Positions 1-43,793 of a stretch of DNA of 64,000 bases are shown here, one piece after another; within the stretch, counting starts at the first letter, position 1, and each line of letters begins with the position of its first letter. This DNA is from Acetobacter vaccinii (GTDB lineage Bacteria; Pseudomonadota; Alphaproteobacteria; Acetobacterales; Acetobacteraceae), in NCBI RefSeq assembly GCF_008365315.1, contig NZ_CP043507.1:1-64000 (forward strand), written 5' to 3'. The notes beneath the pieces are model-generated. The model saw only the letters and a program-made list of their open reading frames with translations. It was not told the origin of the DNA and searched no databases. The position numbers were made by a program, and so were the translations under genes.

Positions 1-1214
1 ACAAGGGCACGCGTGAGGGCGTGTTCCAGGCCATCGCCACCCGCTTTGGGGTCTGGCAGCGCTGGGTGGACGGGCATGTGGAATTCTACCGCACGGAAAC
101 CCGGACCTGGGCCATTCCTGCTTTTGCAGGGGATTCCACGATCGACACCTCCATTATCGCCTATACGGGCGGTGGGTCTGGGGGCAGTTCAGGCGGTGGC
201 GGTTCGGGCGGGGGCATGTCGGGAGGAGGCAGCTCGGGCGGCGGATCATCAGGCTCGGGGTCTGGCTCATCCGGCCAGTCCATGGGTGTTGCCTCCATCA
301 GCAGCCATGGCAAGACCAACCGCTGGACCAATCTGACGAAGACCGCGCAGATCATTTCAGGGGGGGCCAGTGTCTTCGCCGATGAAGCGTTGGGCACCCT
401 CTCGGCCACAGGCTCACCCGACCAGATGGCCCGTATCGAGGACTGGGTGTCGTCCCTCAAAAGCGACATGCTCAAGCAGGTCGCCGTCGAGGTGCATGTC
501 TATACGGTCAAGATTTCGCACGAAAGCAACTACGGCTTCAGCCCGACCCTCAGCTTCACGTCAAAGGGCGGGCTTCTGGGGCTGAGTTCCTCTCCGGCCG
601 CCATCCCTGCCATCCAGACATCCGATACGCCGTTCTCCTTCGGGGCCTCCATCCTCGATACGGGCAAGGGGACCGGGGGTCTGTTCTCGGGCTCGAAAGT
701 GGTCGTCCAGGCGCTGCAGCACATGGGCAATGTCACCGAACAGTATGACCGCTCGGTGGTGACGACCAACGGTCTGACAGCGCCCTTCCAGAACGGGATC
801 AACACCACCTACCTGGCCAATTCCAGCTCCGTTCTGGCCTCCAACGCCGGGGCATCCAGTTCGCTCTCGCCCGGTGTTGTCATGAGCGGATTCATGGGCT
901 CGGTCACACCGCGCATCGTGGACAACCGCATCCTGCTGCACGTCAACTTCCTGCTGCAGACCCTGCTCTCCATCACCACGATCTCGGGCGGTCAGTCCTC
1001 GCTGCAGGCTCCCAAGACGTCCAGCACGTCCCTCGACGACACTGTTGCCCTGCAGAACAACTCCACCCTCGTTCTGAGCGGCTACGTCGATGACGCTACC
1101 CAGCGCACGCATAACGGTGTCGGCTCCGCCCTCAACTGGGCGTTCGGCGGGGGCGGGGATGCGGTCGTGGAAAAAACCCATGTTGTCGTCACCGTGGAGG
1201 CCCACACCCTGTGA
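1..1214 (+). CDS. pilN: PilN-like type IVB pilus secretin (5' end outside window)
   Basis: This is the C-terminal part of an outer-membrane secretin that would form the gated pore for the thin conjugative pilus. The frame is open from the first bases, so the gene begins upstream. A very Gly/Ser-rich linker (about 165-290) separates an N-terminal domain from a beta-rich secretin region ending in [10 protein letters not shown]. Order and composition fit the R64 PilN family; PilN proteins are lipoproteins, but the signal peptide lies outside the window. The stop overlaps the GTG of the next gene (GTGA), so the two are translationally coupled. The assignment rests on the overall pattern and the pil neighbours, not on an alignment. 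Confidence 0.85.
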
Positions 1215-1840
1215 AAACCGCCCTCACCCTCACGCTGGCCCTCATGGTGCCAGCCCTCAGTGCCCAGGCCCAGACACCCGACTGCGCCCTGCATCTGCAG
1301 GAGCCCGCACGCGGTGGCACCCTGACCCAGGAGCAGCTGGACGCAAACAACGCCTGTCTCGCCGTGCTTCAGGTCAAACGCAAGATTGCCGAAGACCTCT
1401 CCTCCATCGCCGAAAGCGAACACCACGCCCAGGAGACCCTCACCCGCTCCAGCGCACATTCACCCGCACCCGCCCCGGCCCGTGTCGTGGCCAGCACGGC
1501 TGCACCGCCTGTCGTCACACCAGCGGCCCCTGCCCCCAAAGCCGCCCCCCTGCCATCCGTGGAGGGCATCCTGTGGAATGGCAGCCAGCAGACAGCCCTG
1601 CTGTCCATGCCTGATGGCGGGACACTCGAAGCCCGCGCCGGCACACGCCTGCCCGATGGCAGCACCGTGGTCTCGATCCGCATGGATGAAACGCGCACCG
1701 AACCCGCCGGGGTGACCATCCGGCGCGACGGCCTCCTCATCAGCCTGTCTGGCGGGAGTGGCGCACAGACCTCCACCCCCCATGCCAGCACTCCCTCCAC
1801 CGGCCAGACCGTCATGGTTGCGCCCTTTATCGGACACTGA
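1211..1840 (+). CDS. pilP: PilP-like pilus biogenesis protein
   Basis: A 209-residue periplasmic protein with a clear signal peptide (basic start, hydrophobic core, cleavage near SAQAQ, about residue 20). A Pro/Ala-rich linker follows (about residues 75-115), then a small beta domain containing [11 protein letters not shown], typical of the type IVB PilP family, which connects the inner-membrane platform to the secretin. The GTG start at 1211 overlaps the pilN stop. In R64 the order is pilN-O-P; here the PilP-like gene precedes pilO. Family assignment is from the motif and the context. Confidence 0.7.
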
Positions 1841-1848
1841 GGCCCAGA

Positions 1849-3012
1849 ATGGCGATTTTCATACGATCAGGTGATACGCGCTGGTGCGGCGGCCTCCGAT
1901 GGGTCGCCTACATGCGCAAACCCGGTTTCTTCGCATTGCGGCGCAATGCTCTGGACATGGGCATGACGCATTTCATCCGCTCGCGCGATCTGCCCCGTCG
2001 GGCAGGCTTCATGCAACTGGTGGCTGACACGGCCTCCACCCGCAAGATCAACAGCCTGCTGGTCGCGGTCATCAGGAAATACGGCGCGCGCAGTTACATC
2101 GAACTGGAGATCGGCCCCGACCAGACCTGGTTCGCCGCCACCGACGATGACGCCTCCCCCCTGCCAGGCTCCGATCAGATCTATACCGATGAGGAAATGG
2201 CCGGGATGCGGACCGCTCTGACCGGATGGCGGTTTGAAACACGCGAACTGGCCACAGGCGAAAAAGGCGATGCCTTTCTCAGCGGCCTGCCACCATCCCC
2301 GCTGACAGTTCATTCCATCTCGCTCCGCCCGCTCTGCCTGGGTCTGGCCAGCCTGGCCGTGCTGGGTGGCACGGCTCTGGAAGCCTACAGTGTCGTGCAC
2401 GAACGCCAGCTTCGCCATTTCCGTGAGGAGGCCCGTCGCACCTTCCTTCTCCAGCGCCAGAAAGCCGAAGCCGCCGCCCGCAATGCCCAGTCCCCGGGGG
2501 AATGGGTCAGAATGTGCATGGCCAACGGCTATCATCTGCCTGCCTACACCCATGGGTGGACACTCAACCGATGGGAATGTGTCGGCAATGAGCTGGATGT
2601 CGAATGGACACGTTCAGGCGGCACCCTTGCCGATGCCCCGCATGGTGACGTGCGCAGTAATGGCAACATCGTCAGCGGCCATCTGCCCCTGTTACCCGTG
2701 GAGGCGCATGAACCTCCGTCGCGTGAGGCGGCCGCCGACAGCAGGCAGTTCATTTCCTACCTCCAGGCATCGGGGGTCACCCCCACGATCACCCAGAGCG
2801 GTCTGTCCGGGACCACAGCAGGTCACGCCCTGCCCCAGTCCTTTTCCATCAGCTTCACCTGGCAGAGTGATCCGCGCGCCGTGCCCTGGGACACGTTTGC
2901 GGGTCTGCACATGGAGCGCCTGGCCCGTGTCGTTGCCGCAGGCGGCGAGCAGACCGGCAAAACCCTCGAATACCTGATCAAGATCAGGATCGACGACACT
3001 CCCGCCCATTAA
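1849..3012 (+). CDS. pilO: PilO-like inner-membrane pilus assembly protein
   Basis: A 387-residue bitopic membrane protein. An N-terminal cytoplasmic domain of about 155 residues is followed by one membrane segment (about 160-180), a coiled-coil stretch rich in Arg/Glu/Ala (185-215) and a periplasmic domain. This matches the type 4b PilO2/PAP_PilO architecture, which links the PilQ-PilR motor to periplasmic partners. It lies 8 nt after the pilP-like gene and 13 nt before the ATPase gene, as expected for one operon. Confidence 0.75.
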   Translation: MAIFIRSGDTRWCGGLRWVAYMRKPGFFALRRNALDMGMTHFIRSRDLPRRAGFMQLVADTASTRKINSLLVAVIRKYGARSYIELEIGPDQTWFAATDDDASPLPGSDQIYTDEEMAGMRTALTGWRFETRELATGEKGDAFLSGLPPSPLTVHSISLRPLCLGLASLAVLGGTALEAYSVVHERQLRHFREEARRTFLLQRQKAEAAARNAQSPGEWVRMCMANGYHLPAYTHGWTLNRWECVGNELDVEWTRSGGTLADAPHGDVRSNGNIVSGHLPLLPVEAHEPPSREAAADSRQFISYLQASGVTPTITQSGLSGTTAGHALPQSFSISFTWQSDPRAVPWDTFAGLHMERLARVVAAGGEQTGKTLEYLIKIRIDDTPAH

Positions 3013-3025
3013 GGAGACGCGTCCC

Positions 3026-4669
3026 ATGAAATGGTTTTTCCGGCGTGATGTCACGCCCACGACAGACCGCATCCCTGCGGTCATCACTACTCCACGCAGT
3101 CTGGAAGGACAGATCCATTTCGACCCGGCCGAGCGCCAGGTCATCGCCAGCGAGCAGCTCAAGGGCAAGGTTCATTTCCTGCAATGGCTGGATATGGTAC
3201 GGCAGGTTCCGGGGCACCGGTCTGTGACCGTGCAATACGCCACCATGAGTACCGTGACAGAACAGCTGGACCGGGCGCACCATACGACACAGACCACAGA
3301 CGCACCCGGCGATGAAGCCGAGGTTGCCGACAGGGCACTGGCCCTGCTGCGCGAAGGCGCGTCCGTCGGCGCCTCGGATATTCATATCCTCAGGCGCGAA
3401 CGCCATACGGAAGTCCAGTTCCGGATCAACGGCAATCTGGTTGTCGCCTATGAATTGGACAATCCCTACGCCGATCGTCTGATCCGCGCCATGTATCGTC
3501 TGGGCTCCTCGCAGGCAGCCTCCGTCACCGAAAGCCTGTTCCAGGATGGCGCGATTTCGGGAGATATCCTCAAGGGGACGGGTCTGGAGAACGTCCGTAT
3601 CGTGCGCGGTCCCTGTGTGCCCCTGACCCTGGGGGGCCAGTTCATGATCCTGCGTCTGCAGGCAACAGCTACCCTCACCGCCCGCAGGCCGGCCCGGCCC
3701 CCGATGACCCAGTACCGGACACCGTCCCGTCCTGCAGGGGAGCTGAAATTACGGGAGTCCAATTACTCCCAGTCCCAGGTTGATCGGATTCTGTCGATCG
3801 TCATGGCCCCCTCGGGAGCCCTGCTCTGTACCGGCCCGACAGGCTCGGGCAAGACCACCCTTCTATCTGAAATCTGGAAAGAAAAAGCCCGCTGCATGCC
3901 CGGGCGCAGGCTGGTCACGATCGAACAGCCTGCCGAGTTGATCATGCCCTGGGCTATCCAGCTTGATATTCCCAACACGGCTGATGCTGAAGAAGCCGCC
4001 CGGCTCATGGCCGAGCGCCAGCGCACTACCCTGCGGATGGACCCCGATGACCTGGGCCTGGCCGAAATCCGTGACGTGGAAAGTGCGCTGACAATGTTCA
4101 GCGAGGCACAGACCGGCCATTTCGTCGGCACCACGCTGCATGTCGATGACCCGTTCGATTTTCCGCTGCGCCTGCAGAACATGGATTTTACCCGCCTGTC
4201 CTTTGCCATGACATGCAATGCCTCGGTCATTCGTGGGGTGGTTGCCCAGCGGCTGCTGCCGGTCCTGTGCCAGTGCGCCGTGCCCTGGTCGTCCACGGAA
4301 GGCCGGATGGCACGTCTGTCGCGCCTGTCATGCGAAGCCGTGCCCGGCTGGTGTGATGATCTGACACACGTCAGGCAGGTCGGCCCCGGGTGTGCCGCCT
4401 GTTACGGCACGGGGTACACCGGTCGTACGGTGGTCGCCGAAGTCGTCGAGACCGATGAACGGCTCATGAACGACTTTATCATGCTGGGCGTCAGCCGGGC
4501 CCGGCACCGCTACCGCTCACGTCCCGACGCCGATCCCTCCATGCTTGAAACCGCCATGGGTCTGGTCGCTCGCGGGATCGTTGACCCCTTTGACGTCAAT
4601 ACCCGTGTGGACCGCATCAGGCCCAAGGACGTCGTCCTGGAAGAACGCCACCTGGGGGCAAGGGACTGA
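3026..4669 (+). CDS. pilQ: PilQ-type pilus assembly ATPase (GspE/PilB family)
   Basis: A 547-residue cytoplasmic secretion ATPase that would power thin-pilus extension. Visible motifs are Walker A GPTGSGKTT (about residue 270), an Asp-box/Walker B-like segment (about 335-350), the His-box TTLHVDDP (about 370) and a C-terminal zinc-type cysteine cluster (CQC, CAAC; about 412-460). The length is close to the family's usual 500-560. It sits between pilO and the pilR-like gene, as in R64. The RBS AAGGAGACG lies just upstream of the ATG. Confidence 0.9.
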   Translation: MKWFFRRDVTPTTDRIPAVITTPRSLEGQIHFDPAERQVIASEQLKGKVHFLQWLDMVRQVPGHRSVTVQYATMSTVTEQLDRAHHTTQTTDAPGDEAEVADRALALLREGASVGASDIHILRRERHTEVQFRINGNLVVAYELDNPYADRLIRAMYRLGSSQAASVTESLFQDGAISGDILKGTGLENVRIVRGPCVPLTLGGQFMILRLQATATLTARRPARPPMTQYRTPSRPAGELKLRESNYSQSQVDRILSIVMAPSGALLCTGPTGSGKTTLLSEIWKEKARCMPGRRLVTIEQPAELIMPWAIQLDIPNTADAEEAARLMAERQRTTLRMDPDDLGLAEIRDVESALTMFSEAQTGHFVGTTLHVDDPFDFPLRLQNMDFTRLSFAMTCNASVIRGVVAQRLLPVLCQCAVPWSSTEGRMARLSRLSCEAVPGWCDDLTHVRQVGPGCAACYGTGYTGRTVVAEVVETDERLMNDFIMLGVSRARHRYRSRPDADPSMLETAMGLVARGIVDPFDVNTRVDRIRPKDVVLEERHLGARD

Positions 4670-4672
4670 ACC

Positions 4673-5788
4673 ATGGAAATCCGTTACACCGATGTCGATT
4701 ACGACCGCAGGTCGCAGATCAGTTCAAGCGTCAGCCGTCTTGTCAACAGACTGGATTTTTCCTGGAAAAACAGGGAGAGTCTTTATCAGATGCTCTCCAT
4801 CCGCCTGCGTGTGGGAATGTCTGAGGCGAGCATCATCCGGATGTTTGCAGTCCAGGCCAGGCGCAACCGTCAGAAGTCCGTCTGCAGGGTCACTGACGCC
4901 ATGATAGGGCGCCTCCAGCACGGGGAAACCCTGACTGAAACTCTGCGTCCCTACATTCCCGATGATGAATACATGATCATCATGGCTGGAGAAAAAGCAG
5001 GGACTTTACCCGATGCTCTCGAACTGCTCTGTGAAAGCAAGTCGGGCTCCAACGCCATGCTCCATGCCTCCTTCAAAGCCCTTGCCCAGCCATTACTCTA
5101 TCTGGCTGTCATCTACGTCTTTCTCTACGTCATGGGCACAACCATTCTTCCGGGGCTGATCAACGGTCCTCTGGCTCCCAAAACACCCAGCACCTCACAA
5201 AAAGTCCTGATGGTCGCCACGTCACTGGCAACAGGCTGGTATGGGCCAATCCTCATCACAGTGCTGGTCACATCCGCCCTTGTCATCTGGCAGAGCCTGT
5301 CACGTCTGACAGGTCCTCTTCGTGTCATGCTGGAGCGGATACCCCCGTGGTCTCTCTATCGCGACATTCAGGGGTTTATCTGGATTTCCAGCTTTCTGGC
5401 CCTCGTGCGTGCAGGTGTCCCCGACAAGGATGCCGTCAGGCTGCAGTCGGCGAACGCCTCACCCTGGCTGCGCGAGCGCCTGGACGCCATCTACACGAAC
5501 CTCACCGTCAGGGGAATGAGTTTTCCAGACTCCCTGCTGGAAACCGGACTGACATTTCCATCGCCCAGGATCATGGATGATGTCGAAGCGAACTGGATCA
5601 ACAAAGCCGGATATGACCGGCTGTATCATTCCACACGCCATTGGGCCACGACCCTCGAAAAACGCACCATCGCCTTCGCCAAGAGGACGGAAAACGGGTT
5701 CGTCTACCTCATGATCGGCCTCAGCGTCGTGCTGGCAGCCGCGTGTGATAACCTCGGCACAGACGTCTCCCACATGACGAATTTCTAG
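4673..5788 (+). CDS. pilR: PilR-type inner-membrane pilus platform protein (GspF family)
   Basis: A 371-residue polytopic inner-membrane protein of the type II secretion F family, on which the PilQ ATPase acts. Two cytoplasmic helical domains (about 20-130 and 230-340) alternate with membrane segments at about 141-162, 184-206 and 345-365, the standard GspF layout. The first domain carries the family-like ALELL...ESKSG run. It follows the ATPase gene by 3 nt. Confidence 0.85.
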   Translation: MEIRYTDVDYDRRSQISSSVSRLVNRLDFSWKNRESLYQMLSIRLRVGMSEASIIRMFAVQARRNRQKSVCRVTDAMIGRLQHGETLTETLRPYIPDDEYMIIMAGEKAGTLPDALELLCESKSGSNAMLHASFKALAQPLLYLAVIYVFLYVMGTTILPGLINGPLAPKTPSTSQKVLMVATSLATGWYGPILITVLVTSALVIWQSLSRLTGPLRVMLERIPPWSLYRDIQGFIWISSFLALVRAGVPDKDAVRLQSANASPWLRERLDAIYTNLTVRGMSFPDSLLETGLTFPSPRIMDDVEANWINKAGYDRLYHSTRHWATTLEKRTIAFAKRTENGFVYLMIGLSVVLAAACDNLGTDVSHMTNF

Positions 5789-5855
5789 GCCCGGCCGGAC
5801 CCACAACAGCCCGCCTTACACTGGCCCGTGTCAACAACACTGAAAGTTCGTCATT

Positions 5856-6371
5856 ATGGATAGTATGATTGCAGTCCTCGCCAAAGCCACCCTCGGGGGG
5901 TTGGCGCTGCTCGCCGTTGTTGGCCTCATCTACGAGGCCTTTCACAAAAGCTCGGAACAGATTGCTGCTAATTTTGAAACCGAGCTGGTCACAAACGTCC
6001 AGGGGTATTTCCAGGGCGGTGTGACCGCACGGAACTACTCCGGGCTGACGAACCAGGTCGCCATTCAGGCCGCCCTGGTTCCCAAGGGCATGCTTCTGAG
6101 TGGAGATACATCGACCCTCAAAGGACCATGGCCCAACTCCACAGTCACTCTCGCCTCCGCCAATAGTGGCATGGGGATGACGGCAACGTGGAATAATGTG
6201 CAGAGCGAGGATTGCGCGACATTCGCACGCTCGCAGAGCCCGACCAGCCTGACAGTCAACGGGACAACAATTTCCCCGACCAGTTCAACCGTGGCGGCCG
6301 ATATTGCAACGGCCTGCAATGCAGGCACGACCAGTTCCACTGTGACCATCATGTTCGAACACGATAGCTGA
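5856..6371 (+). CDS. pilS: PilS-like type IVB major prepilin
   Basis: A 171-residue small protein with a short N-terminus, a hydrophobic helix (about 12-30) containing GGLALLAVVGLIYE, and a Thr/Ser-rich globular domain with two late cysteines (about 120 and 152) that could form the pilin disulfide loop. The segments LVPKGML and GPWPNSTVTL match the R64 PilS pattern. A Gly-Gly just before the hydrophobic run is a candidate prepilin peptidase site. No PilU-type prepilin peptidase gene is in the window. Confidence 0.75.
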   Translation: MDSMIAVLAKATLGGLALLAVVGLIYEAFHKSSEQIAANFETELVTNVQGYFQGGVTARNYSGLTNQVAIQAALVPKGMLLSGDTSTLKGPWPNSTVTLASANSGMGMTATWNNVQSEDCATFARSQSPTSLTVNGTTISPTSSTVAADIATACNAGTTSSTVTIMFEHDS

Positions 6372-6386
6372 TCCTGCGGTGCAGCC

Positions 6387-6854
6387 ATGGGCTATCTCCT
6401 GCTCGCCCTGACCATCATCATCGGCCTGTTCGCCGAAGGCGCCGGGACATGGGTGCGTGCCAACGCCCCGTCCCTCAACGCGCCACCTGCGTATGCCGTC
6501 CAGCCCTGGCTGGCCTACAAAAGTGCGGTGCAGGTCTATGTCGAACAGCATCCAGGGGTCTCAGGATCCCTGGATCTCGACACACTGGGCCTTCAAGGAC
6601 AGACGGCGGCCCTGGCGCAGGCTGGCAACAGCATCATCGCAACACCCGGACAGACCACGGTGGTCACATGGATGGCCATGCCCGCCAATGCCCAGGCCGA
6701 TACCCTCAGCCTCTCTGACGGCGACCACAGCATCGGTCTCTCTAACGGCACCAGCTGGACATCACCGTGGTTCGGCGACATGGGCGCCCTGCCGCTCATG
6801 GTGCCCGCAGGTGACATCGTCTCCGTCGTCATACTCAGCGGAACAGGTTTCTGA
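6387..6854 (+). CDS. pilM: PilM-like pilus accessory protein
   Basis: A 155-residue protein that starts MGYLLLALTIIIGLFAEGAG, a single N-terminal membrane anchor, followed by a periplasmic beta-rich domain. Start pattern, length and location in a pil operon resemble the PilM family of IncI thin-pilus loci, whose function is poorly known. In R64 pilM lies before pilN, whereas here the gene sits between the pilS- and pilV-like genes, so the name is tentative. Its stop directly abuts the ATG of the next gene. Confidence 0.55.
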   Translation: MGYLLLALTIIIGLFAEGAGTWVRANAPSLNAPPAYAVQPWLAYKSAVQVYVEQHPGVSGSLDLDTLGLQGQTAALAQAGNSIIATPGQTTVVTWMAMPANAQADTLSLSDGDHSIGLSNGTSWTSPWFGDMGALPLMVPAGDIVSVVILSGTGF

Positions 6855-8258
6855 ATGCCTCAACTCATCGCGATGCTGGCCGCAGCCATCCTGAGCATCA
6901 CCCCGACAGTCATGTATTTCCAAAACCTGCAGGACAGTCACCGCCAGGCTGTCATCAATATCACGGCGCAGCAGTTCCAACTCCTTCTGGCTGGGATTCA
7001 CCGCTACGTCCGCGCCCATGCGACCCCCCTGGAGGATGGCCTGTCCACCGGGCAGATGGTGCCGGTGACACTCGACGCCCTGCTTGCCGAGCATGACCTG
7101 CCGCCCGGCTTTACCGCCATCAACCCCTTTGGCCAGCAATGGCAGATCTACGTGGCCCAGCCTGTCACGGGCACGCTGGAGGCGTGGATTACCGCGACCG
7201 GAGGCGAAACCCTGTCCCCCAGGGACGTGGTGTCAGTCGCCACCCATACCGGCGCACAGGGGGGATATATTCCCCAGGATGGGCTGATCGCCGGTCTGAC
7301 ATCGCAGGTCGCCCAAGGGGCGGCCGGGACCTGGTCGCGCAGCATTCCTGGCGCAATCAATCCCGGGCCCGGCCATCTCTTCGGGATCGTCGCCTCGGCC
7401 AATGACGTCGATAACAACGCCGACTACCTCTATCGCGAAGCCGTGCCTGGTCATCAGGAACTGACCACCATGCGCTCGCCCCTGGGCATGGGGGGCAACG
7501 ATATCAACGATGTAAAAACCCTCAATGGCCATGACGCCAATTTCACCGGCCGGATCGGTGTCGGCGGAACACGCGCCGCAGACGGTCCCTACCCCGGGGT
7601 GTGGTATGGTGGCGTGCATACATTTGATTCCTATGTCGATGGCGGTACCTACGGAGCAGGCACCAACGGCTCCATGAACGTCGCCATCTCCGGTCAGGGT
7701 GCCAGTGGCTTTGGCTGGGCCAGCCAGTTCTGGACCGCCCCTGTGTTCCGGCCAACACTGGTCGCCGTCTCCGGCCAGCCCTGCGGCACGGCCGACAATG
7801 ACACGACCTCCTGGGCAACGACACACTGGGCAGGCACCACGACAGACAGCGGCTCCTTCGCCATCGAAAACGGTGACATCGCCAAGGATGAGAACGGCGC
7901 AACCCTCGTCTGCCGCAAGGGGATCTGGAGCCCGGCCGTCGCGGGCGCGCATGTCACCAACTACATGCTCGACCCCACGCCGGGTGATCCCAGCGGTGAT
8001 ACCCATGCCGCATCCCTGGGCGAGCACGTCTTCTGCGCCCTGACGGACAGCTTCGAATACAACAAGGAAGACCCCACCTACGGCTTCACACCCAACGCAA
8101 CGCGTGTTCTGCCCGTGGGGATCGGACCACATGGCTTTTTCATCTGGAACCTCTCGCGTGGCGACCATGGCACGTTCGGGGGCGGGGCCGCGTGCATCGA
8201 CTTTGACAATACCGCAGCCACCACAGTGTCCAACGCCACCATCAGCGGATCGAACTGA
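6855..8258 (+). CDS. pilV: PilV-like minor pilin / pilus tip adhesin
   Basis: A 467-residue prepilin-like protein. It has a hydrophobic N-terminal helix (about 3-22), then a segment with PGFTAINPFGQQWQIYV typical of the constant region of shufflon pilins, a Gly/Asn-rich middle and a cysteine-containing C-terminal domain (three Cys: QPCGT, LVCRKG, VFCALT). In R64 this protein caps the pilus and selects recipients by lipopolysaccharide. No rci recombinase and no repeated sfx-like segments follow, so the C-terminus is probably fixed here. Confidence 0.8.
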   Translation: MPQLIAMLAAAILSITPTVMYFQNLQDSHRQAVINITAQQFQLLLAGIHRYVRAHATPLEDGLSTGQMVPVTLDALLAEHDLPPGFTAINPFGQQWQIYVAQPVTGTLEAWITATGGETLSPRDVVSVATHTGAQGGYIPQDGLIAGLTSQVAQGAAGTWSRSIPGAINPGPGHLFGIVASANDVDNNADYLYREAVPGHQELTTMRSPLGMGGNDINDVKTLNGHDANFTGRIGVGGTRAADGPYPGVWYGGVHTFDSYVDGGTYGAGTNGSMNVAISGQGASGFGWASQFWTAPVFRPTLVAVSGQPCGTADNDTTSWATTHWAGTTTDSGSFAIENGDIAKDENGATLVCRKGIWSPAVAGAHVTNYMLDPTPGDPSGDTHAASLGEHVFCALTDSFEYNKEDPTYGFTPNATRVLPVGIGPHGFFIWNLSRGDHGTFGGGAACIDFDNTAATTVSNATISGSN

Positions 8259-8259
8259 C

Positions 8260-8973: not shown

Positions 8974-8980
8974 TCCGGCC

Positions 8981-9424
8981 ATGACCAGATCCATCCGCCC
9001 CCTTCCTTTCCCGGCCGCCCTGCTCTGCACCCTCGCCGGTGTGCTGGCAGGCTGCGCGCCACCCCAGCCCCCGCCCGCACGGGGCATCGCCCAGGACATG
9101 ACCGCCGTTCTGCACAGCATGGACCAGATGGGACAGGTCCGCTTTCCCATGGTCAGGCCGGGTTCTGTCCTGCCTGCGGAGCTGCGTCGTCCCATGGCCT
9201 GGCGCTGGACGGGACGTCTGGACACGGCCGTGCGTCTGATCGGTGAGCGTGTCGGCTATAGCGTGGTGACGCCCCAGACCCGGACTTCGCCCATCATCAG
9301 CATTGATGAATCCGACAGCACGGCCGCTGGTCTGCTCGACGCCCTGGCGGCCGCAGCCGAGCCCGAGGCGCGCATTGATGTCGATCTGCTCTCTCACACG
9401 ATCAGGATTTCCTGGCATGTCTAA
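8981..9424 (+). CDS. traH: TraH/DotD-family lipoprotein
   Basis: A 147-residue predicted lipoprotein. It has a signal peptide ending in the lipobox LAGC (Cys about residue 24) and a compact domain with PMAWRWTGRLDTAVRLI followed by IDVDLLSHTIRI, which fits the DotD/TraH fold. In Dot/Icm systems DotD sits with DotC and DotH in the outer-membrane core. The ATG at 8981 gives a proper signal peptide; the longer frame start at 8933 does not. The end overlaps the next gene by 8 nt. Confidence 0.8.
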   Translation: MTRSIRPLPFPAALLCTLAGVLAGCAPPQPPPARGIAQDMTAVLHSMDQMGQVRFPMVRPGSVLPAELRRPMAWRWTGRLDTAVRLIGERVGYSVVTPQTRTSPIISIDESDSTAAGLLDALAAAAEPEARIDVDLLSHTIRISWHV

Positions 9425-10346
9425 ATGCACGCTCAGTGCAGCGGCTGTCCTGCTGGCCCTGGGGCTGTCCTCAGCGCCCCTGTGGGCCGCTCCCGCACCG
9501 TCCGATCTCCCCGTCCCGCCCATTCCCGCTGGCAACCCGGCCCTGGCCAATCCCATCGACACGCCCATCACCGGGGCGGCCGAGAGTCCAGACATTCCTG
9601 AAATCGAACGCCCACCCTCCCTTGAAGCCCTGATGGCCGTGCGACCGGGCTATGGTCCTGGCACGGAGAAAAGCAGCGGGCGCGATGACATCGTCCGACA
9701 GGCAGCCTGGGCCTTTGGCGCGCAGGGCGGTCTGGCCGCGCGCTCGGATGCCATCAACGAGATGCTGCGCCGCTACGCTGCAACCCTGGATCAGGTCTTC
9801 GACTTCCGCACCCTTGTCCTGCCTGTCGGTGGTGGCCAGACCCTCCTGCGTCCCCCGGTCATCACCCAGGCCCAGATGGCCCTGGCACTCGATCCGTCAG
9901 GCCAGACCGCCAGTGAAAGCCACGAGATCAACGCCATTGCCCGCAAGGCGGCCCTGGTCTCCCGCCCCCCCGAATGGCGGACATGGCTCGTCCGGCCGGT
10001 CACACCCGCCCAGGCCCCACCTGATGCCCAGCGTCCCGCGACGCGCCATGAAGTCGTGATCTGGCGCGAGGCCATGGCCAGGGGATGGGCTGCGGGAGAA
10101 CGCCAGGCCGTGGATATCTTCCTCGACGATCTGGCCCGGCTGGAGCGGGACATCATCGGCATGGCGCGTTACCGCGTGCTGCTGCGCGCAGGCCGTGTCA
10201 AAGCCCCTGATCTGGCACTCATGCACCGTCCGTCCGATGTGCGCGACGATACGCTGCGCATCGACAGTACGGACATGCGGATCGACACCCAGGCCCATTT
10301 CGAGGGCAACCGGGCGCACTGGCACGGCGTGGAGGAGACACCCTGA
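9417..10346 (+). CDS. traI: TraI/DotC-family outer-membrane core protein, apparently not lipidated
   Basis: A 309-residue exported protein of the DotC/IncI TraI family, recognised by position after DotD and by the conserved stretch around VFDFRTLVLPVGG, LRPPVI and the Trp/Arg-rich middle. DotC homologues are lipoproteins. Here the signal peptide (about residues 4-25) ends in LWAAP, a signal peptidase I type site, and no Cys follows the hydrophobic core. The longer in-frame start at 9303 does not supply a lipobox. The stop overlaps the next ATG (TGATGG). Confidence 0.8.
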   Translation: MSKCTLSAAAVLLALGLSSAPLWAAPAPSDLPVPPIPAGNPALANPIDTPITGAAESPDIPEIERPPSLEALMAVRPGYGPGTEKSSGRDDIVRQAAWAFGAQGGLAARSDAINEMLRRYAATLDQVFDFRTLVLPVGGGQTLLRPPVITQAQMALALDPSGQTASESHEINAIARKAALVSRPPEWRTWLVRPVTPAQAPPDAQRPATRHEVVIWREAMARGWAAGERQAVDIFLDDLARLERDIIGMARYRVLLRAGRVKAPDLALMHRPSDVRDDTLRIDSTDMRIDTQAHFEGNRAHWHGVEETP

Positions 10347-11503
10347 TGGCCCGCCAGAGCACACCCGGCTTTCAGTCCCAGGGGGCGGACCATACCGCAT
10401 CCCTGATCGTGGGCATTGTCATTGCCCTCACGCTCCTGATCATCGCGATCTGGCTGCTGTTCCACACCCAGATCGCACAGGCGACACTGTTCGTCCAGGG
10501 GCTTGAACTCGACCTCATCGGCCTGTTCACCCATGACTATGACGCGTTGCACGCCAGAATGCGGGCTGCTGATCCGGCCAGGCTGTCCTGGTCCACGCTA
10601 TGGACCCTGGCAGGCATCACAGGCTCCGTCCTGCGTTATCCGGTCATCGCCATTGTGCTGGGTCTGGCCGTCCTGTGCCTGACCCGCGCCCCCTCAGGCC
10701 GCTACCGCGAACGCTTTGGCCTGGACGGCATGCAGAAGGTGATGGCGGATCTTCATCCCATTGGCAAAGCCTGGATCGGGGCCTCTCTCCCACTGACAGA
10801 ACCGGCTCCCCCAGGCAGCCCCCTGCGTCCGCTTGATCCCGCCCTGGAAGCTGGCGAATGGCTGGCCCGTTATGCCCCTGACGGGCTGGACACAACAGCA
10901 GGCCTGGAGCAGGCGTGCAGCGCCCTCGGAGCGCAGGCCGGTCAGCGCTGGACCGGACCGCAGAGCCTGCAGACAGCCGACCTCGTGATGTTCATGGCCC
11001 TGGGCCTGTTCTGCAAGCGGGAAAAGAAAGAGGCGATGGGTATTCTTGAGAACCTGTCCGCAGCCCTGTCAGGAACCCTGTCCAAAGGGGCACCCCAGAA
11101 GCCAGCCCTGGTCAGCACGGCCTATCTCCGCCAGCTGCGCCGGGCCTACACCCGCCAGGGCTGGTCCGATGCGCTGACCATCATGGACCGCCATGCCCAT
11201 GTCCGGTCCGGTCTGCTGTCCCTGCTGCAGCACGCCCGCAGACGCTGCGGCGTCGTCAACCCGGGCCTGTTCAGCGCCATCCAGTTACTCGACCGCGACC
11301 TCTGGCTGGTGCTGAGCGCTGTGTCCTATCCCCGTGACCGCCAGCCCGATCACATGCTGTCGATCACCACATGCACAGAAGCCGCCGGTGCTGTCGAGCA
11401 CTGGCAGGCCGAGTGTGTGCTGGGTGCGCCCATCCCCACCCCTCGTGTGGATCGCGCCCTTGTTTCCCTGTCCTTTACCGGTAAAGATTCTGATGGCGTT
11501 TAA
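10346..11503 (+). CDS. trbA: TrbA/DotM (IcmP)-family coupling-complex protein
   Basis: A 385-residue inner-membrane protein with membrane segments at about 19-45 and 85-108 and a large C-terminal cytoplasmic domain. The C-terminus carries the DotM-like pattern RDLWLVLSAVSYP and EAAGAVEHWQAE. DotM/TrbA partners the coupling protein DotL/TrbC, encoded about 2.5 kb downstream. It overlaps its neighbours by 1 nt upstream and 11 nt downstream, so it lies in a tight operon. Confidence 0.8.
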   Translation: MARQSTPGFQSQGADHTASLIVGIVIALTLLIIAIWLLFHTQIAQATLFVQGLELDLIGLFTHDYDALHARMRAADPARLSWSTLWTLAGITGSVLRYPVIAIVLGLAVLCLTRAPSGRYRERFGLDGMQKVMADLHPIGKAWIGASLPLTEPAPPGSPLRPLDPALEAGEWLARYAPDGLDTTAGLEQACSALGAQAGQRWTGPQSLQTADLVMFMALGLFCKREKKEAMGILENLSAALSGTLSKGAPQKPALVSTAYLRQLRRAYTRQGWSDALTIMDRHAHVRSGLLSLLQHARRRCGVVNPGLFSAIQLLDRDLWLVLSAVSYPRDRQPDHMLSITTCTEAAGAVEHWQAECVLGAPIPTPRVDRALVSLSFTGKDSDGV

Positions 11504-11846
11504 CGACACTGACCTCTCCTCCCTGTTCCTTGGAGCCCGCAATGCGTCCGGGCAACTCAGGACATGGGCCCGCAAGACCCATGGCCTGAGGGATGACCAG
11601 CTCGACCCCGCCATGATCGGCACCTTTGCCCAGATCCAGAAAATCGCCGAGGACCGGACCTGCTACGGGTATGACGTCAGCACGGCCCCTGTTCTCTATT
11701 TCTGGCCGGTTGACGCCTATCTGAAGGCACTGGAGGAGACTGCTGGTGCAAAAACGCAGCAGCAGCTTGACCTGCACCGGCGGATCGTCCTGATCGCAGA
11801 GGAAAGCCTGCCAGGCAGGACGCGCCGGAGCCGGCGTCATGTCTGA
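11493..11846 (+). CDS. Unknown small cytoplasmic protein in the transfer operon
   Basis: A 117-residue protein I do not recognise. It is soluble and largely helical, with an Arg/Lys-rich tail (RTRRSRRHV). I chose ATG 11493, which overlaps the trbA stop; the frame is open upstream but inside trbA. It also overlaps the ATPase start by 8 nt. Tight packing between DotM and DotB homologues suggests a role in the secretion system, perhaps as an adaptor, but nothing in the sequence proves it. Confidence 0.6.
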   Translation: MAFNDTDLSSLFLGARNASGQLRTWARKTHGLRDDQLDPAMIGTFAQIQKIAEDRTCYGYDVSTAPVLYFWPVDAYLKALEETAGAKTQQQLDLHRRIVLIAEESLPGRTRRSRRHV

Positions 11847-12963
11847 CGCCCTGCCCCTGTGGGAGGGCGACCTGAATGCCCTGCGCAATGAGGAACTCGA
11901 TCGTCTGCTCATGTGGTGCGCCGAGAGTGAGGCCTCGCGCATCCAGATACAGACAGGCTGCCCCATTGCGGTACGCATTCATGGACGCAACCATGAAATC
12001 ACACGACGCGAGGTGTCTGACACGATCGTGCGCGAGGCCATCGCCAAGATGTACCGCGACCAGAGTGTCCTCTCCCGTCTGGCCAGCGCCGAAGCCATCG
12101 ACATCGCCTACACCCTGTGGCCCAACCGCAAGGGTCGGCGTTATCCGTTCCGCATCAACGGCATTGCCACGACCATCGGCGGCAATGATGGCATCGGCAT
12201 TACAATCCGCCCGCTGGCAGACATCCCGCGCTCTGTGGAGGAGCAGGGCGTCGAGCCGGCCCTGCTGGAAGCCTTTGAGGGAGACAAGGGCGCATTCATG
12301 GTCTGCGGTCCAACGGGATCGGGCAAGACCACCCTCATGGGCGGAATCACCCGCAGGCGTCTGGAAGATCCGGACTGCCACTGCAATATCGTTGAAGGCT
12401 CGTCCCCCACGGAACTCCTCTTTGACCGGGTCCGCAAGGTCAACGCCACGATCATGCAGACAGAAATTCCCCGCAAGATGGCGAGTTTCGATGAGTTTAT
12501 CCGTGCGGCCATGCGCCAGGAACCCACCGATATCAACGTAACGGAAATCCGCGATCCTCCGACCATGGTGGCAGGGGTAGACGCCGGGAATACCGGACAC
12601 CGGCTGATGGCCAGCATGCACACCAATGATCCGGCCGACACGATCCGCCGGGCCAGCGCCCTGTGCCCGGCCGATCAGCGCGACAGTCTGACAATGGGGT
12701 TTGTCGAAAACCTGCGGTTGCTGGTCAACCAGCGGCTGCTCCCGTCACGCGACGGGAAGAGGACGGCCATCCGGGCCTTCCTGCCCATCACACGCAGCAT
12801 CCGCAACACACTGCTCGACAGCCCCCGTGATCGCTGGCCCGGCCTCATCCGTGACCTGACGGACACGCAGGGGCAGTCCTTCACAACGGCCATCAGAGCC
12901 GCCCTCGCCCAGGGACGCATTACCGAGACAGTCGCAGGGATGGCCCTGCGGGAGGAGACCTAA
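11839..12963 (+). CDS. traJ: TraJ/DotB-family transfer ATPase
   Basis: A 374-residue PilT/DotB-like hexameric ATPase. Walker A is GPTGSGKTT (about 157-165), the Asp-box region contains MRQEPTDINVTEIRD (about 221-235) and the His box is LMASMHTNDP (about 256). The N-terminal domain (1-120) resembles the PAS-like domain of this family. DotB energises the type IVB apparatus; IncI TraJ is its plasmid counterpart. This ATPase is distinct from PilQ at 3026. Confidence 0.85.
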   Translation: MSDALPLWEGDLNALRNEELDRLLMWCAESEASRIQIQTGCPIAVRIHGRNHEITRREVSDTIVREAIAKMYRDQSVLSRLASAEAIDIAYTLWPNRKGRRYPFRINGIATTIGGNDGIGITIRPLADIPRSVEEQGVEPALLEAFEGDKGAFMVCGPTGSGKTTLMGGITRRRLEDPDCHCNIVEGSSPTELLFDRVRKVNATIMQTEIPRKMASFDEFIRAAMRQEPTDINVTEIRDPPTMVAGVDAGNTGHRLMASMHTNDPADTIRRASALCPADQRDSLTMGFVENLRLLVNQRLLPSRDGKRTAIRAFLPITRSIRNTLLDSPRDRWPGLIRDLTDTQGQSFTTAIRAALAQGRITETVAGMALREET

Positions 12964-12964
12964 C

Positions 12965-13213
12965 ATGTGGCGCTTTACAGCTGATCCGGTCCGTCTGGTC
13001 ATTCTGGACTTCAGAGCCCTCGCCCCCATGCTGGTCTTCTTCTGCCACATGAACGAGGACACCTTCATCATTGCCCTCATCGGGGTAGCCTTCTTTGGCG
13101 TCCTGGCCTGGATGGGGCTGACCCTGCCCGTGGCCCTGCGCATGGCGCGGGCCTCTCTGTGTGGCCCGATCCGCCCCCGCCTGCCCGCCTGGAAAAAAAG
13201 AGACTACGCATGA
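12965..13213 (+). CDS. traK: TraK/IcmT-family small membrane protein
   Basis: An 82-residue protein with two hydrophobic segments (about 20-30 and 36-56). The pattern is typical of IcmT: a conserved Trp near the start, HMNEDTF between the segments, and a basic tail with PAWKKRD. IcmT is an essential Dot/Icm inner-membrane component and follows DotB in many systems, as here (1 nt spacing). Confidence 0.7.
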   Translation: MWRFTADPVRLVILDFRALAPMLVFFCHMNEDTFIIALIGVAFFGVLAWMGLTLPVALRMARASLCGPIRPRLPAWKKRDYA

Positions 13214-13643: not shown

Positions 13644-14057
13644 ATGCAGATCATTACCCTCTCCGGGCTGACCCGCCCCATTATTATCGACCCGACTGGC
13701 TCTGAAGGGGTCACCGTGCGTTTCGTGCCGGTCGGGCAGGACCTTCAGCCCCCGCCTCCCACCTCAGGCGCGCGCCCGCGCAGACTGTCAGTCCCCCGTC
13801 CCCTCCTGATCGCGGCCCTCGTGGGTCTGGTCGCCTATGGCGGATATCACGCGCCGTTTTTACCGTTCCAGCATGGGGATGCTCCAGCCCAGGTTCGGCC
13901 CGCGTCCCTTCCCACGATGATGGTGCCCTCGACCGGCCCGGTCCCGGCGTATGCCATTCCCCCCTCGGAACGCGGCACCCCTGCGGCGGCAAGACTGGTT
14001 CCGCCTGCGGGGCCGACACCCGCCACAACACTCAACCAGCCCTTCGGGCTCGAATAA
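13644..14057 (+). CDS. Unknown bitopic Pro-rich membrane protein in the transfer operon
   Basis: A 137-residue protein with a basic N-terminal domain, one membrane segment (about 50-68, LLIAALVGLVAYGGYHAPF) and a Pro/Ala-rich periplasmic tail. The family is not recognised. The stop is followed immediately by the GTG of the coupling protein. The shape would suit a protein spanning the envelope, but its function cannot be read from the sequence. Confidence 0.55.
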   Translation: MQIITLSGLTRPIIIDPTGSEGVTVRFVPVGQDLQPPPPTSGARPRRLSVPRPLLIAALVGLVAYGGYHAPFLPFQHGDAPAQVRPASLPTMMVPSTGPVPAYAIPPSERGTPAAARLVPPAGPTPATTLNQPFGLE

Positions 14058-16548: not shown

Positions 16549-17052
16549 TCAGGCAGAGGGTTTTTTAGGACGACCCCGCCGCTGGGGCTGCTGGGTGTCT
16601 TCCGGTTCCGCGTCAGTAACAGTCTCACTGCCCGTCTGAGTGGCGGCCGCACTCCGGCCCAGGCCGATTTCCTGGGCGAGGCGGGAGCGTTGCGCCGCAT
16701 AGCTGGGGGCCACCATCGGGTAATCCGCAGGCAGGCCCCAGCGTTCGCGATACTGTTCCGGTGTCATGTCGTAGGCTGATTTAAGATGCCGCTTGAGCAT
16801 CTTGAGCTTTTTGCCGTCTTCCAGGCAGACAATATAGTCTGGATAGACGGATTTCTTCACCGGCACGGCTGGCACACGGTCTTTTTCGGGGGCCTGGTCT
16901 GCATCAAGACTGACCAGAGTTTTGTAAACGTCGGCTATGAGGCCCGGCACCTGGTCGGCCGCTGTCGTATTACTGGAAACATAGGCCGCCACGATTTCGG
17001 TCGTCAGAACATGAAATGAAGAAGCCACAGGTGCTTCCAAAGATATCGTCAT
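16549..17052 (-). CDS. MucR/Ros-family transcriptional regulator
   Basis: A 167-residue zinc-finger type DNA-binding protein of the alphaproteobacterial Ros/MucR family. The diagnostic segments are CLEDGKKLKMLKRHLKS, then YDMTPEQYRERWGLP, then YPMVAPSYAAQRS. The second zinc-ligand Cys of Ros is replaced by Asp (C-L-E-D), a variant I believe is common in MucR proteins. ATG 17052 has CGGAG 8 nt upstream and is preferred to the GTG at 17061. Convergent with the transfer operon; it may repress conjugation genes. Confidence 0.9.
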   Translation of the reverse strand: MTISLEAPVASSFHVLTTEIVAAYVSSNTTAADQVPGLIADVYKTLVSLDADQAPEKDRVPAVPVKKSVYPDYIVCLEDGKKLKMLKRHLKSAYDMTPEQYRERWGLPADYPMVAPSYAAQRSRLAQEIGLGRSAAATQTGSETVTDAEPEDTQQPQRRGRPKKPSA

Positions 17053-32433: not shown

Positions 32434-32437
32434 CTAG

Positions 32438-33841: not shown

Positions 33842-33845
33842 CTAG

Positions 33846-34341: not shown

Positions 34342-34414
34342 CCCTACAATATAGAAAGAGTTTCAAGATCTAACAGATTTTAAACTTCGTAAACCAAAAT
34401 CAAATACAACGAAT

Positions 34415-34513: not shown

Positions 34514-34565
34514 CGGATAGGCTATACGAAATAGCTTTAGTCTATCATTGGATTCGGAGATAAAG

Positions 34566-34937: not shown

Positions 34938-34951
34938 TATTTCTAAATTAG

Positions 34952-36355: not shown

Positions 36356-36363
36356 CTAATCGT

Positions 36364-37343: not shown

Positions 37344-37387
37344 GAAACACAGTCTCTAAAGGTTTCGTTCTTAATATATAATATATA

Positions 37388-39681: not shown

Positions 39682-39947
39682 AGGTTTTTTTTCATGAGAA
39701 TGGCTGGGAAGATTATCTTTCCTGGTTCCAGTCAGACACTGCGCTTCTTGGGAAAATAAATACCTTGATCGAAGATGTGCGACGACATCCATTTCAGGGT
39801 TTGGGCAAACCTGAGCCACTCAAGGGACAGTTAACCGGATGGTGGTCCCGACGGATTACGGGAGAACATCGTCTGGTTTACCGCGTCAGAGGCCATGCTG
39901 AAGATGATCAGCGTATTGAAGTTATCCAATGCCGTTTTCATTATTAA
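39678..39947 (+). CDS. yoeB: YoeB-family mRNA interferase toxin
   Basis: An 89-residue RelE/YoeB-fold toxin. It shows WEDYLSWFQSD, KINTLIEDVRRHPFQGLGKPEPL, the catalytic region SRRITGEHRLVYRV and the C-terminal CRFHY with the His-Tyr pair. It cleaves ribosome-bound mRNA; YefM neutralises it. A plasmid maintenance module. Confidence 0.9.
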   Translation: MKVFFHENGWEDYLSWFQSDTALLGKINTLIEDVRRHPFQGLGKPEPLKGQLTGWWSRRITGEHRLVYRVRGHAEDDQRIEVIQCRFHY

Positions 39948-40266
39948 AAGTTAAATGCCACACATTAAGACAGGTTCAGCTCCCTATTGCAGGCGAGATA
40001 TGTACATTAAAATGGCAATACTCTTACCCAACATGATATCTCTCCATAGAAGTGCACTCACCTGATATCGATGGTTCCCCCGCACTCCTGGAGGTAGCTA
40101 TACAGTTCCATCGGTGATCAAAGACGTGGAGACACACCCTGACGGAGCAAATGTGTCGTAATAAAGACTTGTCCGTATATGCCGCCATCGTTCCCACCTT
40201 CCCATGCCCGATAGAGAACATAATGAGAACATGGTGGCGGAGAAATTTCAAGCGCTTTTCGGTCCC
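39948..40266. other. Intergenic region after yefM-yoeB
   Basis: About 320 bp with no supported gene; short frames on both strands lack RBS and recognisable domains. It marks the switch from AT-rich cargo to GC-rich mobilization genes. Confidence 0.4.
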
Positions 40267-40581
40267 TCAGCGCCGCCAGCCTTTGAGACCCTGCCATGCC
40301 TCGCTCAGAACCGCCCCGGCAACAGCCTGGTCAGACACCGACCCACGCAGCGCAGGATGCGCCACAACCAGGCGGTAAAGGTCCTGCAAATCCGCAAGGC
40401 TCAACGTCTCGCGGGTCTCCACCTCAGCTTTCAGGGCCGCCAGAACCCGGGCGTTCAACACCGCATGCCGCTCCCGGAAAGCCGCATAGTCCTCGGCACT
40501 CTGCAGGCCTTCAGCCTCCCGCTCCGCCTCAACCAGAGGCATCAGGATCTGCAGCAGCGTCTCGCTCACTGTGCCTTTCAT
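40267..40581 (-). CDS. Small unknown protein downstream of the relaxase
   Basis: A 104-residue, Glu/Ala-rich helical protein, not recognised. ATG 40581 has GGGAG at good spacing; ATG 40587 is too close to it. It follows the relaxase gene by 32 nt in the same direction and is probably in the mobilization operon. Confidence 0.6.
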   Translation of the reverse strand: MKGTVSETLLQILMPLVEAEREAEGLQSAEDYAAFRERHAVLNARVLAALKAEVETRETLSLADLQDLYRLVVAHPALRGSVSDQAVAGAVLSEAWQGLKGWRR

Positions 40582-40613
40582 AGTCATCTCCCGTCTTCAG
40601 TCGGTCTGTTGCT

Positions 40614-43600: not shown

Positions 43601-43793
43601 GCGGCCCGATATCGGGTGCCCAGGACCCCTGGCCATCCCGGCCGGTGAAATAGCTGTTCAGACGCCCACCGGCCTCTGCGGTCTGGCTGGCCGTGTGGTC
43701 CCCGACCGGACCGGGCCTGAGCTGATGCTCCCGCATATAGGCGACCAGAAGCCTGCCCACGCCGTTGGCCGAGAGCTTGCGATAGGTAATCAT
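40614..43793 (-). CDS. MobF-family relaxase-helicase (TrwC/TraA-like)
   Basis: A 1059-residue conjugative relaxase that nicks oriT and unwinds the transferred strand. The relaxase domain (about 1-300) has the HUH triad His180 and DPQAHIHN (211-214). A candidate nucleophile is Tyr48 (NSYFTG); Tyr19 is another. The SF1 helicase part has Walker A GVAGAGKTALL (about 510), VLDEVSQIG and the later GHAMTIDAAQGIT. An ISGIDFTASPDKSV segment before the triad is typical of MobF. Overlaps the upstream 93-codon gene by 4 nt. The long plus-strand frame over this gene is a GC shadow. Confidence 0.9.
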   Translation of the reverse strand: MITYRKLSANGVGRLLVAYMREHQLRPGPVGDHTASQTAEAGGRLNSYFTGRDGQGSWAPDIGPLIADALGLDISRPPTDEELIRLFECKRASDGADWPGAHANRTISGIDFTASPDKSVTLAAEFAATTAEQALIWHAIQQANDRALALIGREIGVARRGQGGQGEHEAGEVAWVSFRHYTARPAMHIQDGLNGPTASVEIPVPGDPQAHIHNAVFNAVATEDGHLGSLDTARVTKMTSHLFGAYFQAELGQQLRSMGVRVRPDERGRAIVIEAIPRDVCEAFSKRSRQAEQQAKAFVKRQGGNWDTLSAEQKFKVLHQANLAYRSKKYDGTNDREIWREEARALGWSHRSVLEDVVAAPTDPGQRYEQACAIASRLLAEEFETQAVIDRDAFRMHAAHGLIATGLDGPQDIDRVAEMILERGIEIRGERVHFLQGVAHGRVQVTTSEQIRVEQEMGRLAGLSARTRAGSLEDAAIARVIAASSLDFEREPDHGRAQKAAIFALGRAGGLGFLTGVAGAGKTALLAPLVSAWKEDGRQVIGAAVAWRQADALRDTGISQSFALAKLLRDIETGEHGLTRQTVLVLDEVSQIGPRQMLRLLELQETIGFSMRLLGDREQAQAIEAGDSLAILKRVLPAEAAPELLSTIRQASARGRAIAGLFRSQGRDPALSEAEQREKDAERAREAIAMKCRDGTFRLIGGDHDQVVDEIADFYLRRRDMLTAAGSRRGITMSAPTNEDVMALSMAVRSRLRARGEIGEAEIIRPAIDQRGEVYDLPLSVGDRVRLFDRVQVRVQTPRGLRWRHLGSNGDIVSVAGWDEAGLRLTNSRGLEGLVPWERLADQTSGRTRLGFGHAMTIDAAQGITSDEHINAMPRGTATMTGFTAYVAESRHVQTCWTRIAEAPVREAEQFSRPLGDTTPVTHADLLDRIAADLGRHPYKPVGIDLMKRRLAFEAETARWIRQSHTAEAMVQAGQSPGGGWRARKATQGLRAIPGTCWDDISRTMRKRAYETQNVAERISRLVEEQLRSREAEGQGEAAQVKTERERTHRRSPSVSPGQ

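Follow-up and report, generated by a model that had tools for sequence, protein, structure and literature searches.

A type IVB transfer operon, a MOBF relaxase and an IcmS-fold protein beside DotL on a plasmid of Acetobacter vaccinii

The stretch of DNA considered here (the window) comprises positions 1-64000 of contig C2 (NZ_CP043507.1), a plasmid of Acetobacter vaccinii. The studied genome consists of three contigs: C1 (2,814,618 bases), C2 (165,009 bases) and C3 (102,624 bases). The window carries a type IVB (Dot/Icm-type) transfer operon and, on the opposite strand, the gene for a 1059-residue MobF relaxase (Table 1). Between positions 1 and 16310 the gene order is secretin, PilP, PilO, pilus ATPase, T2SSF-type, PilS, PilM, PilV, SLT, DotD, DotC, DotM, a 117-aa protein, DotB, IcmT, a 135-aa protein, a 137-aa membrane protein and DotL; the matches of PilO (25.6 against a cut-off of 26.7) and PilM (22.7 against 25) fell under the curated Pfam cut-offs. 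The operon begins at the far end of the C2 record and thus spans the record start. At C2 153.3-165.0 kb there are genes for DotI, DotH, a TrbI/DotG-type protein, a weak TraQ match and a TrbG-like protein; the opposite strand at 147.0-152.2 kb encodes DotA/TraY and a protein that matches TraW under the cut-off. The DotO position on C2 is occupied by a 1053-aa protein with weak HerA matches, whose counterpart in pGOX1 of Gluconobacter oxydans 621H is annotated DotO; a PDB search with the DotN candidate gave no match. The markers of the type IVB mating-pair formation class (MPF_I) that are present are DotB, DotC, DotD, DotI, DotH, DotA/TraY, IcmT and a DotL-type coupling protein. The TrbG/VirB9-like protein (CagX 3.3e-19; C2 162734-163702) lies within the type IVB operon beside the pil genes, as is annotated in pGOX1 too.

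The window DotL was aligned over residues 9-614 with the solved Legionella DotL (6sz9_A), and this match places it firmly in the DotL family. The MobF protein matched the TrwC structure 1omh with an expectation value (E) of 3.4e-8; Tyr4, Tyr19, Tyr48, an HIH motif at 211 and a Walker A motif at 516 were read from its sequence, by which it is a clear MOBF relaxase with helicase. The Pfam and NCBIfam matches, together with that to the solved DotL, confirm the initial annotation in placing both modules on one stretch.

The whole genome was searched for a MOBP relaxase or a VirD4/TraD-type coupling protein, either of which the initial annotation would have taken as evidence against a pairing of these modules, and neither was found on the plasmid. 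There were two genomic matches to TrwB_AAD_bind, both DotL-type, and none to PF02534 (VirD4/TraG) or to the relaxase family PF03389 (MobA_MobL). PF03432 gave a single weak match in the genome (25.2 bits, cut-off 24.6), which was chromosomal; none was on the plasmid. The chromosomal match is a 561-aa open reading frame (ORF) at 9208-10893 of L018 (C1:2508001-2528000). PF03432, PF08751 and PF03389 were the relaxase profiles searched directly, those of MOBH, MOBV, MOBC and MOBT not being among them. A Pfam scan of 45 C2 proteins of at least 200 aa outside the transfer operon, a set without the border-crossing C2_068 and C2_077 and the 246-aa protein of the divergent operon, revealed no relaxase among the families listed (25 of 39 and 25 of 29).

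A survey of 200 Acetobacteraceae genomes, our own included, was used to examine how DotL and MobF are distributed. With DotL matches accepted at E<=1e-40, the window DotL was matched in 20 genomes and the window MobF in 45. MobF sequences were divided at 47% identity into close (>=47%) and distant (36-42%) relatives of the window protein. Close MobF occurred in 19 of the 20 DotL genomes versus 7 of the 180 others (Fisher 7e-20, each species being counted as independent), and 15 of the 22 DotL contigs also carry a close MobF. Contig sharing was scored on 22 of 23 DotL rows, the second piece of the C3 gene being dropped, and on 72 of 79 MobF rows, seven second pieces of broken genes being dropped. 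Of the 34 places with a close MobF gene, 15 were on a DotL contig and one on a VirD4-family contig; of the 38 with a distant MobF gene, 16 were on a VirD4-family contig and none on a DotL contig. Two MobF lineages within one bacterial family thus go with two kinds of coupling protein. PF03432 was found on none of the 22 DotL contigs; this comparison was made by eye, and PF03432 and PF02534 negatives in the relatives hold among the rows listed. One DotL contig (G135:C2) also bears a PF02534 gene, 201 kb from mobF.

The trees agree with this pattern. For 17 of 21 DotL-MobF pairs (four near-identical ones were left out; G130, G006 and G159 have the two genes on separate contigs, so that pairing went by genome, and the MobF of G180 is incomplete) the correlation of tree distances was 0.918, as compared with 0.976 for DotL-DotC and 0.953 for DotL-DotB in 16 systems; no value was reached in 2000 permutations of each. 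For the 12 distant systems only, DotL-MobF gave 0.871 versus 0.914 for DotL-DotC and 0.925 for DotL-DotB. DotL and MobF have co-diverged over the 17 systems, slightly less tightly than genes within the operon; this speaks for a shared history and does not by itself demonstrate contact. In ten whole plasmid records, all seven alphaproteobacterial relatives had MobF and no PF03432, R64 and pGRT1 had PF03432 and no MobF, and pACP4.1 had neither. The statement that IncI-type systems are partnered by MOBP relaxases holds for the two MPF_I comparison plasmids read, R64 and pGRT1.

The best-60 PLSDB lists for DotL and MobF have 45 records in common, which include plasmids of Roseomonas, Komagataeibacter, Kozakia, Beijerinckia, Methylocella, Methylosinus and Methylocapsa. 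Since pGOX1, Gluconobacter thailandicus NZ_CP043044 and Beijerinckia pBIND01 are already typed as MOBF with MPF_I by PLSDB/MOB-suite, the combination alone is of a known kind, and it is not the exceptional one that the initial annotation implied but is common to Acetobacteraceae, Beijerinckiaceae and Methylocystaceae plasmids. The pairing of MOBF with type IVB is established for one plasmid lineage. In the literature covered, which excludes most subscription journals, no discussion of MOBF with MPF_I in this lineage was found, including in the accessible portions of PMC3158045, PMC12857230, PMC10432156 and PMC6112013. MOB typing misses or mistypes part of this plasmid family: of plasmids with MobF and type IVB genes, Methylosinus pOB3b2 (NZ_CP023739) is typed MOBQ and mobilizable, and Methylocapsa pRX1 (NZ_CP136863) is typed non-mobilizable in spite of an additional MobQ relaxase.

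The new part of the finding is a protein with the fold of IcmS encoded beside DotL. IcmS is the effector adaptor of intracellular pathogens, with which Legionella loads proteins. The 135-aa protein after icmT almost certainly has the IcmS fold, as both its sequence profile and its fold match those of IcmS. The gene lies directly after icmT in 24 sequences, namely our own two and all 22 related DotL loci, and is kept in the three Beijerinckiaceae/Methylocystaceae plasmids (3 of 3). A mere chance likeness of a small alpha/beta fold, to which the low identity with IcmS (14-16%) and a single-sequence PDB search with nothing significant (best E 0.83, an unrelated protein) would lend themselves, appears very improbable to us. 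The protein database holds 345 relatives of this family at E<=0.01, with a Pfam domain in none of the 120 relatives listed, and NCBIfam searches with 17 members gave one match, at chance level. In a phylum sample the gene was found in one of 388 genomes (our own), but absence here means little, as no more than ten first-look candidates were scored per genome.

The initial annotation had looked for the link between DotL and MobF among the small proteins of the operon; in outline this stands, one of them having an adaptor fold. The 117-aa protein was tested as IcmS or IcmW and rejected (best PDB profile E 0.18, unrelated; AlphaFold 2 and Foldseek, predicted local distance difference test score 88.1, best E 1.6). 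The searched stretches of R64 and pGRT1 showed no IcmS-like gene; among the ORFs of R64, whose stretch measured 49 kb, none reached E 1. R64 TraL, tried as an IcmS counterpart, was unmatched, and the best of 18 R64 transfer proteins, TraX (6.3 bits, E 0.009 for this set of 18, domain E 0.02), is taken as chance. The betaproteobacterial type IVB plasmid pACP4.1 of Acidovorax carolinensis has an IcmS-like gene (L120 10813-11412) and no PF08751 match, and is typed by MOB-suite as MOBP and mobilizable. The accessible part of a 2018 paper confines IcmSW to a subgroup of type IVB systems, those of Legionella species, C. burnetii and R. grylli (PMC5802825).

In Legionella, IcmS and IcmW are borne by the DotL tail. 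A profile of 17 DotL sequences of the family was aligned to residues 3-768 of Legionella DotL (E 2.2e-168), this tail included. A second DotL and MobF occur in the same genome on C3, and the two plasmids were compared: identity is 93% in the DotL core (residues 101-600), 59% in the DotL tail, 63% in the IcmS-like protein and 94% in MobF. When five measures were compared in 8 pairs of systems, the DotL tail was the least conserved in 6, and the tail and the IcmS-like protein were the two least conserved in 5; for the pGOX1/G. thailandicus pair MobF was the least conserved of the five. Such divergence would fit partners that change together, but any weakly constrained region would look alike.

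The C3 DotL is 85.8% identical to that of C2, and the C3 MobF 94.0%. C3 retains a truncated DotB, IcmT, the IcmS-like protein, the membrane protein, DotL, MobF, the 89-aa gene upstream of mobF and a candidate origin of transfer (oriT) (L008-L011, L016, L017); a repeated insertion sequence-like element adjoins the broken dotB. The other genes of the C2 transfer operon were unmatched among the called genes of C3 (blastp 1e-8), and C3 is probably mobilised through the C2 channel.

Between the relaxase operon and a divergent operon there is a conserved block composed of a hairpin in which both arms of the stem vary (GCACCC..GGGTGC, GCAAACT..AGTTTGC) and, after it, ATTTGTRTATGG; in the window the sequence after the hairpins is ATTTGTATATGG. 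Conservation of the block spans plasmids with relaxases about 62-70% identical to the window MobF. The pattern was found upstream of 15 of 29 MobF genes, in one orientation in all 15, versus 0.17 expected from shuffles; it was set on an alignment and later widened, so that it was tuned on 10 of these 15 loci, the remaining five having 2-3 mismatches, and five of the upstream regions scored were under 1.6 kb. It has a single match within one mismatch in the window (0.04 expected), and the strand folds into two hairpins (z -3.3). No match was seen upstream of mobF in pGOX1 (3.5 kb) or in the three Beijerinckiaceae/Methylocystaceae plasmids. The R388 nic sequence was used for comparison. In its accessible part, a functional oriT study (PMC4853378) does not give a nic sequence. 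From these sequence features we regard the hairpin and ATTTGTATATGG block as a likely oriT site. The divergent three-gene operon resembles R388 stbABC in layout, with no Pfam family to tie its first two proteins to StbA and StbB; StbB is described as required for R388 conjugation in the available text of PMC3098194. The 28 related mobF loci used for Table 1 include two that overlap on one record and several that are short upstream.

Several neighbouring features should be noted. The toxin-antitoxin pair lies between the candidate oriT and the 89-aa gene and is missing at the same place on C3; at this site a Doc-type pair is present in A. orientalis and a BrnA/MazF-type pair in G. thailandicus, and K. 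saccharivorans lacks a pair. Just past DotL, on the strand opposite to it, a 147-aa protein (16549-16992) has by eye the look of a Ros/MucR regulator, though NCBIfam gave no match. Pfam and NCBIfam scans gave no family match for the 137-aa membrane protein; an FGL ending directly upstream of DotL was seen by eye in at least 11 of 22 related loci. The C-termini of close, DotL-type MobF proteins tend to be richer in S/P/G/T/A (..SPSVSPGQ) and those of distant, VirD4-type ones more basic (..RGMRM; Mann-Whitney 2e-4, for the window clade alone 0.03, post hoc), in a sample of 26 close sequences (19 of the wider clade, two of these from genomes with no DotL match, and 7 of the window clade) and 7 distant ones. 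The S/P/G-rich end is a possible translocation signal.

Table 1. Positions in the window of the transfer, relaxase and neighbouring features.
Feature	Position	Strand	Evidence or remark
Thin-pilus (type IV pilus) part, secretin to PilV	1..8258	+	Pfam/NCBIfam matches; secretin begins before the window
DotD	8981-9424	+	PF16816 3e-19
DotC/TraI	9417-10346	+	PF16932 1.1e-68
DotM/IcmP/TrbA	10346..11503	+	PF23127 DotM_C 1.1e-29
117-aa protein	11493..11846	+	matched in 4/22 related loci, all of the window's own clade
DotB	11839-12963	+	TIGR02524 5.7e-72, 242.9 bits, below equivalog cut-off 463.3
IcmT/TraK	12965-13213	+	NF038220 7.9e-29, above cut-off
IcmS-fold protein, 135 aa	13210..13617	+	4-base overlap with icmT stop
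137-aa membrane protein ending ..PFGLE	13644..14057	+	ORF lists, by eye
DotL/IcmO/TrbC coupling protein, 750 aa	14058..16310	+	6sz9_A, E 6.6e-88
104-aa protein, directly downstream of mobF	40267..40581	-	matched in 4/28 related loci
MobF relaxase-helicase, 1059 aa	40614..43793	-	NCBIfam MobF 181.7 bits (cut-off 100); AAA_30 helicase domain
89-aa helical-looking protein, just upstream of mobF	43790..44059	-	matched in 26/28 related loci
Fic/Doc toxin and ribbon-helix-helix (RHH) antitoxin, relaxase leader region	44143..44741	-	PF02661 2.2e-16; PF20605 1.7e-5 (25.3 bits, cut-off 27.2)
Candidate oriT	44882..44924	+	hairpins 44882-44896 and 44897-44912, then ATTTGTATATGG; nic predicted inside
303-aa protein, first gene of divergent operon	45090-46001	+	no Pfam family; matched in 19/28 loci
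ParA-like ATPase, deviant Walker A (by eye)	46091-46903	+	no Pfam family; matched in 17/28 loci
246-aa membrane protein (segment by eye)	46891-47631	+	matched in 15/28 loci

On balance, we favor the view that these modules form one conjugation system drawn from two lineages, a type IVB channel and MobF, perhaps linked via the IcmS-like protein. DotL very probably serves MobF, a possibility that the initial annotation had raised, since a search of the plasmid gave no other partner and dotL and mobF go together from plasmid to plasmid. In such a system MobF would nick the hairpin and ATTTGTATATGG site between the divergent operons, perhaps guided by the 303-aa protein, and the ParA-side genes would enter the recipient first; the ParA-like protein might help to bring the relaxosome to the membrane, as has been proposed for StbB and VirC1. 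The MobF-DNA complex would then be taken up by DotL, because no other coupling protein was found. The IcmS-like protein would sit on the C-terminal tail of DotL, as IcmS does in Legionella, and present MobF, or MobF with the 89-aa protein, to DotL, which together with DotM and the IcmS-like protein would receive MobF and hand it to the type IVB channel. Whether the IcmS-like protein recruits MobF is a close call, for which we put the chances slightly below even. There is a precedent for this last step: according to the accessible part of PMC5572225, the relaxase MobA no longer transfers DNA through the Legionella Dot/Icm system when IcmSW is absent.

A number of observations weigh against this view. 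A close MobF is missing from one of the 20 DotL genomes (G153), seven genomes have a close MobF and no DotL match, and the co-divergence could come from descent in one plasmid lineage without direct contact. The tail of the wider-clade DotL, when used alone, found Legionella DotL tails at E about 0.1, below two unrelated chains; the tail of the window clade is shorter and was not matched by the wider-clade tail profile, and profile comparison of the two clades' tails was weak (probability 29.6%, pairwise E 5.7e-4). No counterpart of IcmW turned up, the only candidate tested being the 117-aa protein. The C2 and C3 copies of the IcmS-like protein differ by 37% and those of MobF by 6%, so that the fast change of the former is not tied to MobF, and pACP4.1 has an IcmS-like match (E 1.2e-7) with neither MobF nor PF03432. 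Within the text available of PMC5572225, DNA transfer through Legionella Dot/Icm was not detected with the MOBF relaxase TrwC alone, and that of TrwC-RalF was independent of IcmSW. This last result also suits an arrangement in which DotL serves MobF directly, through its all-alpha domain or tail and the 89-aa partner, and the IcmS-like protein only stabilises the tail or loads other substrates, namely proteins. The wide occurrence of the 89-aa gene at mobF loci points the same way, as does the fact that its product is identical on C2 and C3, unlike the diverged IcmS-like protein, and R64 and pGRT1, both MOBP, showed no IcmS-like gene in the stretches searched. Against it, the retention of the IcmS-like gene beside icmT in every related DotL locus and in the Beijerinckiaceae/Methylocystaceae plasmids makes it a core part of the system, and we consider direct service possible but doubtful.

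It might also be supposed that the modules are unrelated neighbours, the type IVB operon exporting proteins or being a remnant and MobF using a coupling protein in trans. DotL and mobF are 24 kb apart in the window, K. saccharivorans NZ_CP023039 bears MobF and is typed mobilizable with no mating-pair type, and the MobQ relaxase of pRX1 and the MOBQ typing of pOB3b2 would be in keeping with this. However, our whole genome gave no VirD4/TraG match and its only TrwB_AAD_bind matches are the two DotL; moreover, DotL and MobF co-occur and co-diverge, and in pGOX1 their genes are convergent neighbours. Such independence of the two modules is accordingly improbable.

In this plasmid family a MOBF relaxase module sits on a channel whose partner in the best-known plasmids is a MOBP relaxase. 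The finding bears on the origin of the Dot/Icm adaptors, and food and soil bacteria such as Gluconobacter, in which an IcmS-fold protein is kept next to DotL, provide a safe model of the coupling complex. We tentatively suggest that in alphaproteobacterial plasmids the IcmS-type adaptor is a relaxase loader, that conjugation may be the older setting of DotL and IcmS, and that the effector adaptor of Legionella might be derived from relaxase loading.

Comparison with known systems places this plasmid between several of them. R64 (IncI1, NC_005014) shares the type IVB transfer genes, including the DotL homologue TrbC, but has the MOBP relaxase NikB with NikA, whereas C2 has MobF and no PF03432 match. 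The Legionella Dot/Icm coupling complex (DotL-DotM-DotN-IcmS-IcmW) is resembled in DotL, DotM, IcmT and the IcmS-fold protein after icmT, which is also where icmS stands in Legionella; here, in contrast, the genes are plasmid-borne with a relaxase, and IcmW was not found among the candidates tested, that is, the 117-aa protein. With R388 (MOBF, MPF_T), as far as the available text of PMC3098194 describes it, C2 shares a MOBF relaxase and an arrangement in which an oriT-like site separates the relaxase operon from a divergent one; the latter contains a ParA-like gene and lies 3' on the strand predicted to be nicked. The same text reports stbB-like genes as biased to MPF_T plasmids. The C2 module differs in having a type IVB channel and no counterpart of trwB, for which DotL stands in. 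In pGOX1 (NC_006672) dotL and mobF are adjacent, an extra DUF1796 gene precedes the SLT gene, the ParA-side operon is unmatched in a 49 kb stretch, and a Tn3 transposase gene lies within the 3.5 kb upstream of mobF. In other respects pGOX1 is closely similar to C2, with a near-identical order from DotI to DotL that includes the gene after icmT, a MobF of 64% identity and the same combination of MOBF with MPF_I.

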